Assembly: GCA_023259115.1 (NCBI GenBank)
Contig: JAHFQW010000012.1
Span: forward strand, 1-48,195
DNA: 48,195 nucleotides
Source: an archaeon
GTDB lineage: Archaea; Nanobdellota; Nanobdellia; Woesearchaeales; GW2011-AR9
Direction of reading: 5' to 3'
The position numbers and the translations under genes are program-made. Below, piece after piece: positions 4,634-20,215 of this stretch (positions within the stretch are counted from its first letter, which is position 1; every line of letters begins with the position of its first letter). The notes under the pieces were generated by a model, which saw only the letters and a list, made by a program, of their open reading frames with translations, did not search any database and was not told the DNA's origin.

Positions 4634-4813
4634 TATAGAGGAATTTGAATAAACCCTCTATTCATCAATATAATAGACCGCAGTTTATTTACAAGAAATA
4701 CGAAAACTATCGTATTTCTGTACAGAAAATAAATCGTTTATTTTCTTGTATTAGATAACTGTGTCAAATATTATATATTCTACACCGTTATCTATATTCA
4801 AAGTCATCCTATA
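4634..4813. repeat. Hairpin element B1 with covarying core
   Basis: Outer ends are TATAGAGGAATTTGAATA on the left and the inverted TATTCAAAGTCATCCTATA on the right. Inside are a TACAAG junction, a hairpin GAAATACGA/TCGTATTTC with loop aaacta, a CTGTACA junction, a hairpin GAAAATAAA/TTTATTTTC with loop tcg, and a CTTGTA junction that can pair with TACAAG. The right end supplies the TAG stop codon of the E1 gene. It lies between the last two genes of the operon, so it may end or process the transcript. Confidence 0.75.
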
Positions 4814-6491
4814 TCTCTAAATTCGGTATTCTCTCCTTATGTACATAACAATCACACACCGATCGCAGTGCTGTAAACCCTAATCGCGAATCCAAATCAG
4901 TCGCATATTTAATCGAGCCATTCAATGGGAGGCCGTATCGCTGCCCATCAAAAAGTGTTCCTAGTTCCAATGCCGCAAGCGCCGCTCCAACTTGATTGGT
5001 CATAATAACCGAAGGATCTGGCTGTGCAATACAACTCTGTCTTCGAATAATCTCCTCTTGCCTGCCTCTCTCATAATAATCACTAAATACATGATTCATA
5101 CACGAACTCTTTCCTGGCACATACACTGCCACTTGCGCCGCATCTGGTGAAGACGCCGCACTAATCAACGCAATATCCCTCTCTGTTGCATACGCACTAA
5201 TCAATGCCCGCGCATATAAATTATCCACTAAATCAAAAATCGCATCATACTTTCCTCTTCCGTAAGTATCAATTGAATATGTTCCCTCTTTTCGTTCAAA
5301 TCTCTCAACCAATGCTCTCGTCTTAGCACTAGGATCCATTCTGTGATGTTTTTGTGCAAGCACTCCTGCTTTCTCTTTTCCCACCGCATCATAAAATAAC
5401 ACTTGGCGGTTCAAATTATGACTCTCAATCGTATCATAATCCAAATAATCAACCTCACCGATCCCCATTGTGCTCAACGCTAGTGTCATAATATTCCCTA
5501 ACGCTCCCGCACCAATTACCAGCACTCTCTTATCAGCATATAATTCTCTCTCCTCTTTTTTCTCACTCGGTATATTTTGTGGTACTATCATCTCCCCCAG
5601 ACGTCGAAAAGAAAATCTCTCTCCCTCTACGCCTCGCTTGTAATATAACGCGCGAGGAAATTCCATTCTTGTTGCATCAGTTAAAATAATCTTTTTGACT
5701 TCTTCCGAAATAACTCCCCCCCACAGCAAAGCTAAGAGCGGATGTTGTTCAAAACCAGAAAAATGGGTCATCAAATGATCTACCTCCATTTTCTCTCCTT
5801 GCCATATCATCATCTTTGCATAATTATTGGAAATTCCTGTTGTAATAAAAGGAATTCTTTCAGATCCATATCTATTCTTGGCAAATTCTAACGCCAGCAT
5901 CTTTGATTTAGGATTATTTGTCGTATCAATTATCACCGAACTCTTCTGCAGAAAATCTTGCGCTAATCTTGTTTCTAAATCTACCGGAATACCAATCACT
6001 CTTGTATTTGGGTTAAGCATTTTAAAGCCTCTTTCATACGCCAGAACTCTCTCTTTCCCTGTAAAGCGCATATCCAATACTCGATCTTCTGTTTTCATCT
6101 TACCCGTTCCAATAATGCGCACTTCTCCAACCCCTAATGCCACCAAGGGCAGCGCCGCATAATATGCGCCATAATCTGCCCCAATAATTGTAACAACGGC
6201 GTTCTCTAATTTTATTTGTCCTTCTTCACCCCAAATTTTCTTTTGGCGGTCATAGCGTACCAACTCATTCATTCCCTCAAGCTCAGTATGTTCTACTTCT
6301 GCATGCCCCCTCTCTCCATCTACATGCTCCATCTCTACAAGATCTATCCCTGCATGCTCTACCTCATCTAGCACCGTTGCTGTCTCTTGTTCTTCTACTA
6401 ATTCCCCTATTTTTTCTTTTCTGGGAGGAGGCATAGGTAAACCTATTTTCAAACCTGCATTTTCCAATTCTCCGATTTCTATATCTCCCAT
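4809..6491 (-). CDS. E1-like activating enzyme with two tandem ThiF domains
   Basis: The protein probably adenylates a ubiquitin-like modifier. The first domain (about 79-275) opens with the E1 motif VRYDRQ.IWGEEGQ, but its nucleotide loop is degenerate (GADYGA, 104-109). The second (about 320-515) looks active: GAGALG 327-332, acidic residues D350/D352, HNLNRQ 358-363, GKEK 371-374, and D423-N424 before R428. Candidate catalytic cysteine C487 lies in SCIAQ, followed by PDPSVIMTNQ. C464, C546 and C548 (CDC) could bind zinc. An inactive domain followed by an active one in a single chain is the layout of eukaryotic E1 enzymes; MoeB/ThiF proteins are normally single-domain homodimers. The first 78 residues form an acidic, Pro-containing tail. 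The gene follows the JAMM gene after 129 bases and has only a weak ribosome binding site. Confidence 0.85.
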   Translation of the reverse strand: MGDIEIGELENAGLKIGLPMPPPRKEKIGELVEEQETATVLDEVEHAGIDLVEMEHVDGERGHAEVEHTELEGMNELVRYDRQKKIWGEEGQIKLENAVVTIIGADYGAYYAALPLVALGVGEVRIIGTGKMKTEDRVLDMRFTGKERVLAYERGFKMLNPNTRVIGIPVDLETRLAQDFLQKSSVIIDTTNNPKSKMLALEFAKNRYGSERIPFITTGISNNYAKMMIWQGEKMEVDHLMTHFSGFEQHPLLALLWGGVISEEVKKIILTDATRMEFPRALYYKRGVEGERFSFRRLGEMIVPQNIPSEKKEERELYADKRVLVIGAGALGNIMTLALSTMGIGEVDYLDYDTIESHNLNRQVLFYDAVGKEKAGVLAQKHHRMDPSAKTRALVERFERKEGTYSIDTYGRGKYDAIFDLVDNLYARALISAYATERDIALISAASSPDAAQVAVYVPGKSSCMNHVFSDYYERGRQEEIIRRQSCIAQPDPSVIMTNQVGAALAALELGTLFDGQRYGLPLNGSIKYATDLDSRLGFTALRSVCDCYVHKERIPNLEI

Positions 6492-6620
6492 TTTTCAATT
6501 CTCTGAGTTCCAATTCTCTTCTCTTTATTATAATTTCTCTACTCTCACTTGTTTCTTCACAATCTTAATCCCTCCTGATTTTATTTTTTCGTATTCATAT
6601 TTACTCCTAATCCTATTTCC
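6492..6620 (-). other. Gap between JAMM and E1 genes with a possible micro-ORF
   Basis: This 129-base gap holds a strong GGAGGG ribosome binding site on the minus strand, followed nine bases later by GTG and a ten-codon frame (MKKQVRVEKL) ending in TAATAA. The E1 start has no such site. The small frame may be a remnant, a leader peptide or chance. Confidence 0.3.
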
Positions 6621-8192
6621 TCAGAATTTCGTTCTATCTCTGTGAACCTCATCATATAACTCTGGAATAAATTTTTCCATAGCCTCATTCTGATCATGTG
6701 CTAAAAAATTCCACAGAAAAGATACTTGTATATCCTCTTTATTTCCCTCCAGTGTCTTTCTAATATTCTCTCTCGCTTTTCCCAATATATAATCTTCATT
6801 TCTATCAACTAACGTTGGCACTTCCACCTCTTCTCCATCCGATTCCAGAGGACCTATTTGGTATATTGCTTGTCGTAAACTAATTCCCTGCTGCGATCTC
6901 CCTAATACTCCCAGTAAATCATTCATATATCCTGAGTAAAATACCTCTTGTGAACGATATCTGCTCACATACCCTGCCGCCGCATACACAAAAAGATTTA
7001 CTAATTCTTCTGGTCGTAGACTCGGTTGTTCTTTTTTCACAAATTTATTTGTATGTGACATGAAATAGGAACTATTCGATTTTTGATATTTTTCATATCC
7101 ATCTAACAACGATTGTGAACTAGCCATTTCCCTTCCTGCTTGAAATCCTAACCCATTTGATATGCCCACATCCTCATCTAAATCCCTTTGAAACCATCTC
7201 TTATTTCTCTTGCCATTCCCACTTGGAAATTTCGCCACATATTTGGGTGGAAAAACAATCCTCTCTCGCACTAATTCTTGCATTGCCTGTGTTGTAAACT
7301 CAACATCATCTTCTACATCAACAACTTCCAGTGATATAGTCTGTCGTATAATCGTTTTCTTGCCAATCCCCGTAATGCCTTTCTCCTCTACAATCCCTAT
7401 CTCTGCATAAGGCGTATCTTTTTTTTCATTTACCACAATACTATAGCCAAACCCTCTGATCAGTGGCTCATACGTTTTAAGATCGCACAACTCCACAACT
7501 TCTCGCCACAATCTCTGCACCTCCTCTTCGCTTGCTCTCTTCTTACCAAAACTAAACCCATTTTTTTTCCCAAAGCCATATTGTTCTAATAATTGTTCTA
7601 ATCTTTCTGGATTAGGAATGGTATATTCTAAATACCCATCCACCGTATCTTGACCTGTAATCCTAATCTTTCCCTCTTTCAGCTCCCAGCTAGGTGCACT
7701 CTCCACAATATTAAGAGGTATTCTCTCTCGTTGTTGTGTATTAAGATAGAGGGTATTCAATAACTGCTCAAAATTCTCATTATCTGTTTGAGAATGATTT
7801 GGTTGAAAGTCCGCATGACTATGCAGCCAGCCAATAATATAATAATCTCTGTCTAACTCCTCATTTAATTTTACAACTTCCAAATTTGCTCTTGCATGAT
7901 TCTCACCTGACACTGCCACATAGGCATGACCTGCGTGTGTACCTTTTACCAGCAGTAAATCTCGTACCACATAGCATGGATCATTTTTTTGCGCCAACAG
8001 AAACGAAAACCACTCATTTGCTTTGCCATCAATTGTATGCACCGCTCTACATATCTCATACGCTTTCTCTAACGTATTTCTGGTAATTGGCAATGTTGAA
8101 GGAATAAATACTCTTTCTTGTATTAATTTCTCTTCCCGTTTCATATCCCCTTGTAATAATGCTAATAATTCCTCATCATCTTCGTTCGTCAT
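6621..8192 (-). CDS. JAMM/MPN metalloprotease, predicted deconjugase and precursor protease
   Basis: Residues about 35-195 form a JAB/MPN domain. The zinc motif is complete: E60 in ANEWFSFLL, then H124-x-H126-x7-S134-xx-D137 in WLHSHADFQPNHSQTD. Such enzymes cleave after the C-terminal Gly-Gly of ubiquitin-like proteins, either to mature a precursor or to release it from a target. The remaining about 300 residues are charged and have no motif I recognise; the protein is much longer than a bare MPN domain and so has a specific partner-binding part. Its ATG overlaps the TGA of the E2-like gene (ATGA at 8189-8192), so the two are translationally coupled. The neighbouring small protein has a Gly-Gly followed by six residues, a natural substrate candidate. 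Confidence 0.88.
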   Translation of the reverse strand: MTNEDDEELLALLQGDMKREEKLIQERVFIPSTLPITRNTLEKAYEICRAVHTIDGKANEWFSFLLAQKNDPCYVVRDLLLVKGTHAGHAYVAVSGENHARANLEVVKLNEELDRDYYIIGWLHSHADFQPNHSQTDNENFEQLLNTLYLNTQQRERIPLNIVESAPSWELKEGKIRITGQDTVDGYLEYTIPNPERLEQLLEQYGFGKKNGFSFGKKRASEEEVQRLWREVVELCDLKTYEPLIRGFGYSIVVNEKKDTPYAEIGIVEEKGITGIGKKTIIRQTISLEVVDVEDDVEFTTQAMQELVRERIVFPPKYVAKFPSGNGKRNKRWFQRDLDEDVGISNGLGFQAGREMASSQSLLDGYEKYQKSNSSYFMSHTNKFVKKEQPSLRPEELVNLFVYAAAGYVSRYRSQEVFYSGYMNDLLGVLGRSQQGISLRQAIYQIGPLESDGEEVEVPTLVDRNEDYILGKARENIRKTLEGNKEDIQVSFLWNFLAHDQNEAMEKFIPELYDEVHRDRTKF

Positions 8193-9595
8193 TGCTTTTC
8201 CCCCTGTATCTCTTCTCCCCTCTCCTTACCATCTAAAATCCACTCATTCGTAATTCTATACCCTGCCTCAACTGCCTGTTCACGTGTCAATGTTCCCACT
8301 GTGGTATACGTTTCTTTGAGCGATCGTCCAAAATACATTGCATTCTCATCTCGTGAACCATGTTCATCTAAACTCTTTAAAGTCAACCCGTTGGTAAACG
8401 CATTAATCGCGCTAGATATATGGCGTACAATTCCCTGCGCTGTATTCTCGAAATTTCCCCCACTTAAAATACAAATATGTTCATACCTATTCTTCCAATC
8501 ACGCAGAAAAGGATGCGCCATTTCATCAACAACATATGCTCCTTCATGGTAAACACGTCCATCACTGGCATTTACCCGTACACTCACTCTTGTCGCAGGA
8601 AAAGGATGATATCGTTGTGGTTCTAGTGGATTTTGCATTGCAAATTTGGGCATTTCCCAATAAACATAGAACAATTCACCCTCTCGAATATATCCTAAAT
8701 TTCCATACTCAAAATTCTTTGTATCTGCCAATCTTTCCAACGCTCCTCTTCGTTTCTTCTCATTCGCCGGAATCATCACTCGCTCATCTGTCTCTACATT
8801 CCACTGTGCTAATGCGCTCTGTTTTAACGTATTCAGAAGTAACTGATCATACTTCTCTCCTAAATCACTCGCAGAACAATTATATTCTAATCCATACATT
8901 ATATTTTCAATTGATATGCGTATTTCTCCTTCTTTCTCCTCCTCGTCTATATCCCGTAATCCAAATATCTCTCCTCCCATAACACAAATTGATCCTTGCA
9001 CCAAACGATCCCACAATGTCTTCTCTCCCTGCTCTTTTATAATTCCCTCCGCTCTAATATACGGCTCTTCTCGTATCTCTTGTGTTATACGTTCTAACAC
9101 TTTCTGTCGTAATCGCTCTTTTTCTTGAAATACATTAATCTCCTCAACATCTTCCCCCTCTTTGGAATTTAACTGCAAAACATCCTCAATCACTTCTCTT
9201 CCTGATTTTTTTACCTCTAAATCAACATGAAGTAATTCTCCTAAATCATACGCTGTATCAATCATCAACGGTAACACTTCTAACAATACAAATTCCTGCA
9301 ATCGTAAAATATCTTTTCTACTATCTTTTTGCCTCTCTGATAGAATCTCCGCCTGTAATGCTTCTTGCACATAGTTTTGTGTAAACGTAAACATTTTCCC
9401 TTGATACAACCGTTCTTCTAAATCCTCCATTGCCGCAACCGACATAAACTGGTTCAAATCATATCTTCTTTCTCCCACTTCAACTCTGTTTGACTTCCTA
9501 GAATCATGTTCACTAATGGTATAAATAACCCCTGAATCAATCACAAAAGAAGATAAATTTGCTAAACGTTCAAAAAAATTCGTATGATTTTTCAT
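8189..9595 (-). CDS. E2-like conjugating protein with long N-terminal extension
   Basis: The C-terminal part (about 295-405) follows the E2 (UBC) pattern: strands GYIREGELFYVYWEM, then YHPFPATRVSVRV (compare the E2 YPF.PP.V.F), then HPFLRDWKNRYEHICIL, which matches the E2 HPN...G.ICL core. This makes C375 the predicted catalytic cysteine and H361 the HPN-type histidine. The asparagine of HPN is replaced by Phe, as in several divergent prokaryotic E2 families. A helix rich in Ala and Ile follows. The first about 290 residues are helical and charged and unknown to me. The gene lies between the ubiquitin-like and JAMM genes and overlaps the latter by 4 bases. A GAGGAAT site precedes ATG. The E2 reading is by pattern and needs a structure model. 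Confidence 0.7.
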   Translation of the reverse strand: MKNHTNFFERLANLSSFVIDSGVIYTISEHDSRKSNRVEVGERRYDLNQFMSVAAMEDLEERLYQGKMFTFTQNYVQEALQAEILSERQKDSRKDILRLQEFVLLEVLPLMIDTAYDLGELLHVDLEVKKSGREVIEDVLQLNSKEGEDVEEINVFQEKERLRQKVLERITQEIREEPYIRAEGIIKEQGEKTLWDRLVQGSICVMGGEIFGLRDIDEEEKEGEIRISIENIMYGLEYNCSASDLGEKYDQLLLNTLKQSALAQWNVETDERVMIPANEKKRRGALERLADTKNFEYGNLGYIREGELFYVYWEMPKFAMQNPLEPQRYHPFPATRVSVRVNASDGRVYHEGAYVVDEMAHPFLRDWKNRYEHICILSGGNFENTAQGIVRHISSAINAFTNGLTLKSLDEHGSRDENAMYFGRSLKETYTTVGTLTREQAVEAGYRITNEWILDGKERGEEIQGEKQ

Positions 9596-12328: not shown

Positions 12329-13207
12329 ATGACTTATACACCATTTAATGGAACTAAAAAATACCAACCAGATGCCCGATTAACAACCATGGTAAATATC
12401 GCCATCGCTCGTGAGCGTCCCCTTCTTATTACCGGTGAAGCAGGAACGGGTAAAACTCAACTCGCCTATGCCATTTCTGAATTTCTAGGATTACCTCTAT
12501 ATAGAGCACAAATGACATCAACCATGGAAGGAGAAGAAATATGTTATACATTTGATTCCGTTCTGCGTTTAACTGATTCACAACTTGTCAGCCATGGCAG
12601 CAGTATCGATGGACGTGTCATTTCTAATCCTTTATGTTATGTAAGATATGGTGCTATGGGCAAAGCATTTTGTGATGAGAAACGCAGTGTAGTTTTAATA
12701 GATGAAATAGATAAAACAGAGAGTACGGTTCAAGATGATTTACTGCGAGTATTAGAATCGTATGAATTTGAGGTTCGTGAAGCCAACACCGTAATCAAAG
12801 CTCATCAGAAACCTATCATTGTAATTACCAGCAACGGTAAGAGAGAATTATCTGATGCTTTTCTGCGAAGATGTTATGCCCATCACATCGATTTTCCCGC
12901 AAAAGAACAACTACACAAAATTGTGCAAATACATTATCCCCAAACCAATCCTCTCATTCAACAACATGCCATAAATATTCTCTACGAATTCCGTTCAATT
13001 GGTTTGGAAAAATCACCTGCAACCTCTGAAATATTAGATTGGATTGGTGCACTCAACGATTTAAACATCATTCCTCCCAGAACAATTCACAATAAAGAAG
13101 AAATCCCCTTAATCGGCCTTCTCTTAAAACGAGGGATGGATTTAGAGAGGGTAACAGAAGGAAACTTCCAAACCCGCCGGAATCGTGATGAGAGGGTAGG
13201 AGTGTAA
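12329..13207 (+). CDS. MoxR-type AAA+ ATPase
   Basis: The 292-residue protein has Walker A GEAGTGKT (36-43), Walker B VVLIDEIDK (121-129), sensor 1 TSN (167-169) and DAFLRRC (176-182) with the arginine finger. These fit the MoxR family of AAA+ chaperones, which act with a von Willebrand factor A partner to insert cofactors or remodel protein complexes. The VWA partner is the next gene, 74 bases downstream. A good ribosome binding site (GGAGG) precedes the ATG. The natural client is unknown; the two FAD enzymes that flank the pair are candidates by position only. Confidence 0.9.
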   Translation: MTYTPFNGTKKYQPDARLTTMVNIAIARERPLLITGEAGTGKTQLAYAISEFLGLPLYRAQMTSTMEGEEICYTFDSVLRLTDSQLVSHGSSIDGRVISNPLCYVRYGAMGKAFCDEKRSVVLIDEIDKTESTVQDDLLRVLESYEFEVREANTVIKAHQKPIIVITSNGKRELSDAFLRRCYAHHIDFPAKEQLHKIVQIHYPQTNPLIQQHAINILYEFRSIGLEKSPATSEILDWIGALNDLNIIPPRTIHNKEEIPLIGLLLKRGMDLERVTEGNFQTRRNRDERVGV

Positions 13208-13225
13208 AATAAAGAATATAGAATA

Positions 13226-13270
13226 AGAAATATAACTTCAGAAATATAAAATTAGAAATATAACTTCAGA
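13226..13270 (+). repeat. Two direct repeats of AGAAATATAACTTCAGA
   Basis: Identical 17-base copies occupy 13226-13242 and 13254-13270 with a 28-base period in the leader of the VWA gene. They may be a regulator site or a slippage product. Confidence 0.6.
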
Positions 13271-13281
13271 TAAGAGATACA

Positions 13282-14709
13282 ATGTACACTTCATTCACCT
13301 ATGCCCTCAGAAAAGAAGAAATATCCGCAACCCCTGCTCATCTTCTTGATTTAATGGAAGGTATAGAGCAAGGACTTGCACCAACTCTGGGCGATCTCTT
13401 TCTTCTTGCCAGAGCCACTTATGTTAAAAAACATCGACAAGAAAAAGCTTTCCAGCGCGCTTTCTTTTCCTATTTTCTCAATATCCCTACTGCTAAAAGT
13501 ATTCCTCTAGAACAGTCCATTGAGCAATCAACACAATTTCAACAATGGGTTCAACAAGCAGAAATACCAGAACATGAACCTAAAGTAAAATATTTTATTA
13601 TGGTTCTCTTTGGTGATCAGCCAATTTCTCTAAAATCATCCCTCCTAAAATCATCAATCCCCAGACCAAATATACCTAATTCCCATTTATCCGATCTAGA
13701 TTCTATTCTAGATGAATTTAAAAAAAGAATGATGCAGGAAAAAATACAACCCCATTTTGATAAAAATTATCAACCGGCAATAAAGCCAAAATCAATTTTG
13801 GAGAGTAACCTCAATGACACGGGGGGATATACCGTCGCAGAAGATCACAAAGCCGAATTGATCGATTACGGTGATATTTCTAATAAAGAATTAGAAGAGA
13901 GATTACGTAAAACACTCCAAGCGCAGCAAGAGAAACATGAAGGAGGTAACCAGTGGATTGGTCAAAAAGGTAATAGTCCATTTGGTCATAATGGCTTTAG
14001 TAGATATGGCATTCGTATTGGTGGCAGCAGTCAAAACCGTGCTGCACGCCATGTAATTGACACTGCAGGAACAAGTTATGGTACAGGTAGAAAAATAAAA
14101 GGCTACGAAGATGGTACTATCCAAGAAACGTTACAGCAACTCAAATTAGTCCGTGTCGTAGAAAATAGTTCATCAACAGTTCTCAATCTTCGAAAAACCA
14201 TCCGCCAGGCAGGAAAAAAAGGCTATGTTCAACTACACTACGAACATCAAAAGAAAGATCAAATGCACGTGATCACCTTCATTGATAGTGGTGGCCGTTC
14301 CATGAATCGCCATGTTGCAAAAGTAGAAGAACTCCTTGCCAAAATGCGTTCAGAATTGAAATCACTTGATACTTATTATTTTCATAATTGTATCTATGAA
14401 CACGTTTTTTCAAATCCTCTACAGCAACACCCTCTCTCATTAGAAACCATCACTTCTCAACCTAAAGAAACTAGAATAATCATTATTGGTGATGCTTCTA
14501 TGGATGAATCTCGAGAAATTAATCTCAATACCCTTGGAAGAGTACAAAAAGCATTTCCTTACACCGCATGGCTCAATCCTGTACCACAAGAGTTATGGGA
14601 TGAAACAGCCAGTATTAAACAGATCAAGACTATATTTGAAATGTTCCCTCTCACGCCTCCCGGATTATCTAAAATGGTAGATTATCTAACACGTGAAATA
14701 AAAAAATAA
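13282..14709 (+). CDS. Von Willebrand factor A domain protein, MoxR partner
   Basis: The C-terminal half (about 325-475) has the order of a VWA domain. The metal site reads FIDSGGRSMNRH (D335, S336, S340), a modified form of the DxSxS MIDAS motif, and a later strand IIIIGDASMDES carries the last acidic residues. The N-terminal half is helical with a Gln/Glu-rich middle. A basic, Gly/Ser-rich segment (about 215-255) looks flexible. This is the CoxE/YehP-like partner commonly encoded beside MoxR ATPases. The extra bases in the MIDAS motif (one residue longer than usual) may weaken metal binding. Confidence 0.75.
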   Translation: MYTSFTYALRKEEISATPAHLLDLMEGIEQGLAPTLGDLFLLARATYVKKHRQEKAFQRAFFSYFLNIPTAKSIPLEQSIEQSTQFQQWVQQAEIPEHEPKVKYFIMVLFGDQPISLKSSLLKSSIPRPNIPNSHLSDLDSILDEFKKRMMQEKIQPHFDKNYQPAIKPKSILESNLNDTGGYTVAEDHKAELIDYGDISNKELEERLRKTLQAQQEKHEGGNQWIGQKGNSPFGHNGFSRYGIRIGGSSQNRAARHVIDTAGTSYGTGRKIKGYEDGTIQETLQQLKLVRVVENSSSTVLNLRKTIRQAGKKGYVQLHYEHQKKDQMHVITFIDSGGRSMNRHVAKVEELLAKMRSELKSLDTYYFHNCIYEHVFSNPLQQHPLSLETITSQPKETRIIIIGDASMDESREINLNTLGRVQKAFPYTAWLNPVPQELWDETASIKQIKTIFEMFPLTPPGLSKMVDYLTREIKK

Positions 14710-18854: not shown

Positions 18855-18994
18855 GGCGAAGTAGCTTAACCTGGTATAGCGTTACGCTCATATGTCTTGA
18901 GCTATGAGGTTCACACCAATGACTAATAGCGAGTTGGGTTACGTAAAGGTCGGGGGTTCAAATTTCGTACAGAATGAAAGTCCCCCCTTCGCCA
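18855..18994 (+). tRNA. Elongator tRNA-Met (CAT) with two introns
   Basis: The acceptor stem GGCGAAG (18855-18861) pairs with CTTCGCC (18987-18993), with discriminator A. The D arm GCTTAACCTGGTATAGC is standard. The anticodon stem TTACG/CGTAA encloses loop CTCATAA, split after position 37 by an intron of about 48 bases (18893-18940). The T stem GGGGG/CCCCC encloses TTCAAAT, split by about 18 bases (18963-18980, or shifted by one). Removing both gives a 74-base tRNA with every canonical stem. The form (GTAGC..., loop CTCATAA) is the elongator type, not the initiator. No CCA is encoded. Confidence 0.92.
18963..18980 (+). other. T-loop intron of tRNA-Met (position 59/60)
   Basis: An 18-base insertion sits between TTCAAA and T-CCCCC. 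It can form a short TTTC/GAAA helix and ends in TGAAAG, like the T-loop intron of tRNA-Ser downstream. Confidence 0.8.
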
Positions 18995-19947: not shown

Positions 19948-19999
19948 ACAGCCACAAGCTTCCCCTCTATAAGCCACGATGGCACAATCCGGTACTGCG

Positions 20000-20018
20000 C
20001 AAATCGAGAAATCGAGCG
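20000..20018 (+). other. Intron of tRNA-Ser at the D-arm/anticodon-arm junction (about 25/26-26/27)
   Basis: Without these 19 bases the D arm, base 26 and the anticodon stem are contiguous. The insert holds a TCGA-gaaa-TCGA hairpin. The boundary may shift by one base because G is present on both sides. Confidence 0.7.
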
Positions 20019-20078
20019 TAAGCCTGGAATAAACAGGAGTACTGAGAGCTTGTTTCCGCAAGGATATCCCGGTTCAAA

Positions 20079-20117
20079 TATTACCATCTGAAACCAAATT
20101 CATATGGGATGTGAAAG
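20079..20117 (+). other. T-loop intron of tRNA-Ser (position 59/60)
   Basis: This 39-base insert lies at the same place in the T loop as that of tRNA-Met and ends in the same TGAAAG. It can pair CATC with GATG. Confidence 0.75.
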
Positions 20118-20139
20118 TCCGGGTCGTGGCGCTCTACTT

Positions 20140-20202: not shown

Positions 20203-20215
20203 GGGTCGTGGCGCT
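20203..20215 (+). repeat. Second copy of the tRNA-Ser 3' end
   Basis: GGGTCGTGGCGCT exactly repeats 20121-20133, the end of tRNA-Ser plus two bases, and is again followed by a T-rich run. It may be the trace of an integration or of a duplication. Confidence 0.55.

Follow-up and report, generated by a model that had tools for sequence, protein, structure and literature searches.

The window, by which we mean the whole 48,195-nt stretch of DNA analysed, is contig 24 of a Woesearchaeon genome of 1.57 Mb (54 contigs, 96% complete), an assembly that was probably derived from a metagenome. Positions 18855–18994 on the forward strand form a complete elongator tRNA-Met(CAU) once 18893–18940 and 18963–18980 are spliced out, and the span scored 62 bits (E = 3.5e-13) against a tRNA model made from this genome's own tRNAs, its own spliced form included. 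The first-pass annotation had placed a tRNA-Met with an extra T-loop intron here, and it had the span exactly right; the introns lie at 37/38 and 59/60. Exon 1 (18855–18892, positions 1–37) carries the anticodon at 18889–18891 and is followed by a 48-nt intron at 37/38 (18893–18940), exon 2 (18941–18962, positions 38–59) contains T54-T55-C56-A57 at 18957–18960, and exon 3 (18981–18994) supplies positions 60–73. Between A59 and T60 sits the 18-nt T-loop intron TTTCGTACAGAATGAAAG (18963–18980), made up of T, a helix TTC/GAA, TGAA and AG; its TGAA pairs with TTCA, and a complete hBHBh' motif could be fitted.

The neighbouring gene (19973–20131, forward strand) encodes tRNA-Ser with anticodon GGA and is interrupted by three introns, the removal of which leaves an 84-mer that folds as a class II cloverleaf. 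Exon 1 (19973–20002) is followed by a 19-nt intron in the 5' anticodon stem (20003–20021), placed at about 29/30 from the mature fold and by comparison with the tRNA-Ser(GGA) of a relative (L287), its register being ambiguous owing to a repeated AA. Exon 2 (20022–20029) holds the anticodon at 20026–20028, and a 17-nt intron at 37/38 (20030–20046) separates it from exon 3 (20047–20078, positions 38–59). The T-loop intron at 59/60 is 39 nt long (20079–20117) and ends in TGAA, which pairs with TTCA, and AG; exon 4 (20118–20131) completes the gene with positions 60–73. The 3' end of the gene (GGGTCGTGGCGCT, 20121–20133) recurs 82 bp downstream at 20203–20215 and resembles the trace of an insertion at a tRNA end. 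No tRNA was reported in the window by ARAGORN, also with long introns allowed, or by Rfam at the gathering cut-off.

Other loci in the window include a region on the reverse strand (4809–9595), possibly a ubiquitin-like conjugation cluster, in which an E1-like ThiF protein (4809–6491) that matches defence E1-E2 models stands beside a JAB-like protein (6621–8192) and an unnamed protein. On the forward strand, at 12329–14709, a MoxR-like AAA ATPase is followed by a 475-aa protein without assignment.

T-loop introns in the genome and its relatives

Only seven genes in the whole genome exceeded the cut-off of the Rfam tRNA model. Using searches only, which combined a model from the genome's own tRNAs, a T-loop pattern and a splice solver, we collected at least 38 tRNA genes and one more that is truncated at a contig end (L196). 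The standard model misses most tRNA genes of this genome (7 versus about 39 found), hence the numbers of tRNA genes listed for archaea of this kind are probably too low.

Introns at 59/60, 18–67 nt in length, were present in 24 of the 36 tRNA genes that the solver resolved automatically. Anticodon-loop introns occurred in 26 of the 36, and introns of the D arm or 5' anticodon stem in 13, a class that may include both locations because the solver labels any extra length between positions 12 and 23 as D-arm (in tRNA-Ser(GGA) it truly lies in the anticodon stem). Three solved genes had no intron, nine had one, 18 had two and six had three. Two genes were read by hand, tRNA-Asn(GUU), with an intron at about 53/54 and none at 59/60, and an Arg-CCU-like gene. 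The pattern GGTTCRA-N12-42-GANNRTCC matched 24 times in this genome compared with once for the reversed control. Applied to the 48 further genomes from its family, the T-loop-intron pattern gave 324 matches compared with 75 for the control. The first-pass annotation had proposed from the two window genes that T-loop introns are a genome-wide habit, and comparison with the other tRNA genes bears this out.

Partial copies of tRNA 5' ends (L070/L182 and L181, C11 near 30100 and C8 near 5700; L193, C47 near 145100) stand directly upstream of intact Leu-UAG, Leu-CAA and Gly-CCC genes. A second tRNA with a CCA (Trp-like) anticodon (L002, C25:29623–29693) is intron-less; the tRNA-Trp that bears an intron stands some 400 bp away on the opposite strand.

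Pairing between the intron end and the T loop

The T-loop introns of tRNA-Met and tRNA-Ser(GGA) indeed share their site, between A59 and T60, and their final TGAAAG, and are dissimilar outside these last six nucleotides (z = −1.0). Six of the 24 T-loop introns in the genome end in TGAAAG, and the other ends vary, partly with base 57. With the intron motif YGAA set against T54-T55-C56-R57, 86 of 96 central-helix pairs were formed in the 24 introns, compared with 42.6 ± 4.6 in shuffled introns. Furthermore, the intron partner was C in seven of ten genes with G57 and in none of 14 with A57 (Fisher P = 0.00035), so that pairing and covariation both place an exon–intron helix of about 4 bp beside the predicted cut sites. 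The fit varies in strictness, as 9 of the 24 introns form only two or three of the four central pairs and the inner helix is irregular or lacking in many. The strict hBHBh' motif with two 3-nt bulges is fitted by tRNA-Met; elsewhere one more base must be allowed for, or the central helix is only 3 bp long.

This pairing also accounts for the common ending, from which, together with the common site, the first-pass annotation had suggested a genome-wide habit and perhaps a mobile intron. As the intron end pairs with a T loop that is nearly invariant, T-loop introns tend to end in approximately YGAANG and have similar ends even when they are unrelated, hence TGAAAG is a constraint rather than a signature of descent. 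As with other bulge-helix-bulge (BHB) tRNA introns, removal of the inserts leaves a complete tRNA. We are confident that the T-loop inserts are archaeal BHB tRNA introns at 59/60, a noncanonical site already on record, with fast turnover and with some of them copied across isotypes. Their position, distribution, covarying pairing, identity across isotypes and empty sites are direct observations; how and by which enzyme they are spliced, and by what route they are copied, we infer. The T stem (49–53/61–65) would serve as the outer helix, and T54-T55-C56-R57 would form the central helix with the four intron bases (YGAA) that lie two bases before the 3' cut. The 5' bulge would consist of A58, A59 and the first intron base, and the 3' bulge of the last two intron bases and base 60 (AG/T60). 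In both bulges the cut made by the single EndA would fall between the second and third base, and the exons would then be joined by a tRNA ligase.

Family A and the probable copying of introns across isotypes

Within the genome, four T-loop introns, those in Arg-UCG, Val-UAC, Ser-UGA and Ser-GCU, form a related group (z up to 9.8). Among 353 genomes of the order, a pattern built from these four matched in 14, and it gave no match in the control. The family they define, here called family A, is 44 nt long (consensus TATTGGCGCCCGAAGCGACAATGCTTCGAACGCCAGTGAGAATG) and folds as a two-part hairpin backed by covariation; Rfam returned only chance matches to it, all below and none near the cut-off. A model of family A gave 47 matches in 26 of the 353 genomes, covering 13 families, with one extra copy outside the order but within the class (G490). 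T loops hold 46 of the 47 copies, in tRNAs for 14 amino acids with 25 anticodons in 25 genomes. The 47th copy (G252) lies in an anticodon loop, as does a further weak match (G024), and the pairing strand of the G252 copy reads ACAA instead of AGAA, in keeping with what its new loop, TTGG, calls for. One weak match (G369) has no recognisable tRNA around it. In another genome (G292:C74 near 1100, L240/L249), an intact intron-less tRNA-Ser(GGA) is apparently nested in another, interrupted tRNA-Ser copy, and it is the outer copy that has a family A intron.

Compared across isotypes, members of family A are about 75% alike. Their similarity does not follow the anticodon (P = 0.63); between tRNAs for different amino acids it is greater inside one genome (permutation test, P = 0.016, moderate). 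In G331, the 46-nt family A introns of tRNA-Gln(CUG) and tRNA-Ser(CGA) are identical, yet the 20 bases upstream agree, apart from GTTC, only here and there, the 14 downstream are poorly alike, and base 57 and the T stem differ. In this pair, the single one examined in detail, the exon flanks were not transferred and copying appears precise to the intron boundaries.

Signs of copying are not confined to family A. In the sister species of the same genus (G001), one intron is common to tRNA-Thr(CGU) and an elongator tRNA-Met-like gene (z = 22), the latter assigned manually on the basis of its exons and the loop CTCATA, the solver having misread its anticodon. In family A as in this Met/Thr pair, tRNAs of different isotypes have like introns at a common site. 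The earlier suggestion that the introns were perhaps spread by a mobile intron is supported for family A and for the Met/Thr pair of the sister species, and is not supported for the two T-loop introns in the window, which are unrelated to each other and outside family A. The T-loop introns of Ala-GGC (C54:2607) and Glu-UUC (C49:4982) in G000 share TAGTTGACG and further blocks (z = 4.9), an intron in G066 resembles them, and these may be a further copied family.

Introns matched by anticodon between our genome and the sister species (n = 13) align only in Gly-UCC and Ser-UGA, and the other 11 are wholly different within one genus. The T-loop sites of Lys-UUU, Ala-UGC and Val-CAC are empty in the sister species. 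As few introns align, sites stand empty and introns are shared across isotypes, gain, loss and copying appear frequent.

At 18–88 nt the introns leave no room for a protein and contain no endonuclease reading frame, which excludes an intron-encoded homing endonuclease, and the precise copy boundaries argue against long conversion tracts. An excised intron might be inserted at the RNA level and then enter the genome by recombination, or DNA conversion might act with very short tracts. Ordinary gene conversion between tRNA genes, which would call for no special property of the intron, is possible though on balance doubtful. It would accord with the T-loop motif GTTCRA that tRNA genes have in common and with introns shared by Ser paralogues with similar arms, but it sits poorly with the G331 pair, identical in the intron and different in flanks, base 57 and T stem, and with the two family A matches in anticodon loops, one of which has an altered pairing strand. 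Insertion at the RNA level by the splicing enzymes acting in reverse would be an attractive alternative. More tentatively still, family A may be a minimal mobile RNA element without a gene of its own, entering T loops in this way and with its fold maintained by selection so that a host protein can recognise it.

A search of IMG/VR for one family A pattern gave no exact match in viruses. No reverse transcriptase was found in the family A carriers G000, G001, G026, G022 and G307, and one is present in G015 and G012, both without a family A match. A reverse transcriptase was thus set aside as a needed partner of family A, its presence showing no clear association.

Splicing endonuclease and comparison with known introns

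The genome yielded one gene for a tRNA-splicing endonuclease (C38:15187–15705). Searches with PF01974 and with the protein itself as query, at E up to 10, returned no second gene and no second or fused subunit of a two-subunit or epsilon2 system in this 96% complete genome, and nearly all of 29 relatives searched likewise show one gene. The nearest named relatives of this endonuclease are from Candidatus Woesearchaeota. The 173-aa core aligns over its full length with the EndA alpha subunit of M. jannaschii (1a79), without a large insertion, and scores best against N. equitans chain 3iey_A; the protein is closest to ordinary archaeal alpha subunits and differs from them in having additional charged residues N-terminally in its open frame.

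Reviews associate noncanonical introns mostly with endonucleases of the two-subunit or epsilon2 type (PMC4033280, PMC12397907, PMC4090602), and alpha4/alpha2 enzymes are said to cut only canonical BHB motifs (PMC4033280). This association would favour a second or dedicated endonuclease for T-loop introns, as the first-pass annotation had also raised, but with only one ordinary-looking gene found here, and one in nearly all relatives, no dedicated enzyme is indicated and we regard it as improbable. A second subunit, if there is one, may be very divergent or lie in the missing 4% of the genome. Either the T-loop motifs would be canonical enough for an ordinary enzyme or the genome's own EndA would be broader in specificity.

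Two accounts of where the introns come from have very little probability. In one, a single mobile intron gave rise to the T-loop introns of both window tRNAs. This would agree with their common site and last six bases and with the copying across isotypes that does happen in the lineage, but the two introns are unlike beyond those bases, an ending found in 6 of 24 introns follows from the T loop, and neither matches the family A model. Just as remote is the idea that all T-loop introns are ancient, inherited vertically with each tRNA and lost in places: the Gly-UCC and Ser-UGA introns common to both species of the genus and the Val-UAC intron of family A in two genera are in line with it, but not the likeness of family A across isotypes regardless of anticodon, the identical introns in Gln and Ser tRNAs, or the 11 of 13 introns that are entirely different within the genus.

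The BHB introns described here are largely in agreement with the noncanonical ones, including those at 59/60, reported from Crenarchaeota and Nanoarchaeota (PMC4090602), with a short 59/60 intron, pairing at the junction and often more introns per gene. They differ in occurring in Woesearchaeota, in 24 of the 36 solved genes, and beside a single alpha-type endonuclease gene found. We found no report of T-loop introns or of tRNA-intron transposition for Woesearchaeota in the literature searched, most subscription journals being outside it. Transposition of tRNA introns in Thermoproteales, a 2010 study of which is partly described in two later articles (PMC4090602, PMC4033280), appears from those accounts to be similar in its like introns across isotypes, rapid gain and up to three introns per gene. 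As far as the same accounts go, our case differs in the lineage, in the covariation-supported fold of family A, its range over 13 families and its restriction mainly to one site, and in the identical cross-isotype pair and the few copies that have shifted to anticodon loops. Archaeal group I introns also occur in Woesearchaeota, in rRNA, and are catalytic and several hundred bases long (PMC6125680), unlike T-loop introns of 18–88 nt, which have no Rfam group I match; Rfam gave no match at all in the window at the gathering cut-off, and no group I match at E ≤ 5 in four loci.

Introns at 59/60 and the transposition of tRNA introns were already known. This genome appears to depart from the link that the literature draws between the type of endonuclease and noncanonical introns (PMC4033280, PMC12397907). 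How tRNA introns move has been called unknown (PMC4090602), and family A, with its identical copy pair, provides a concrete test case for such movement.
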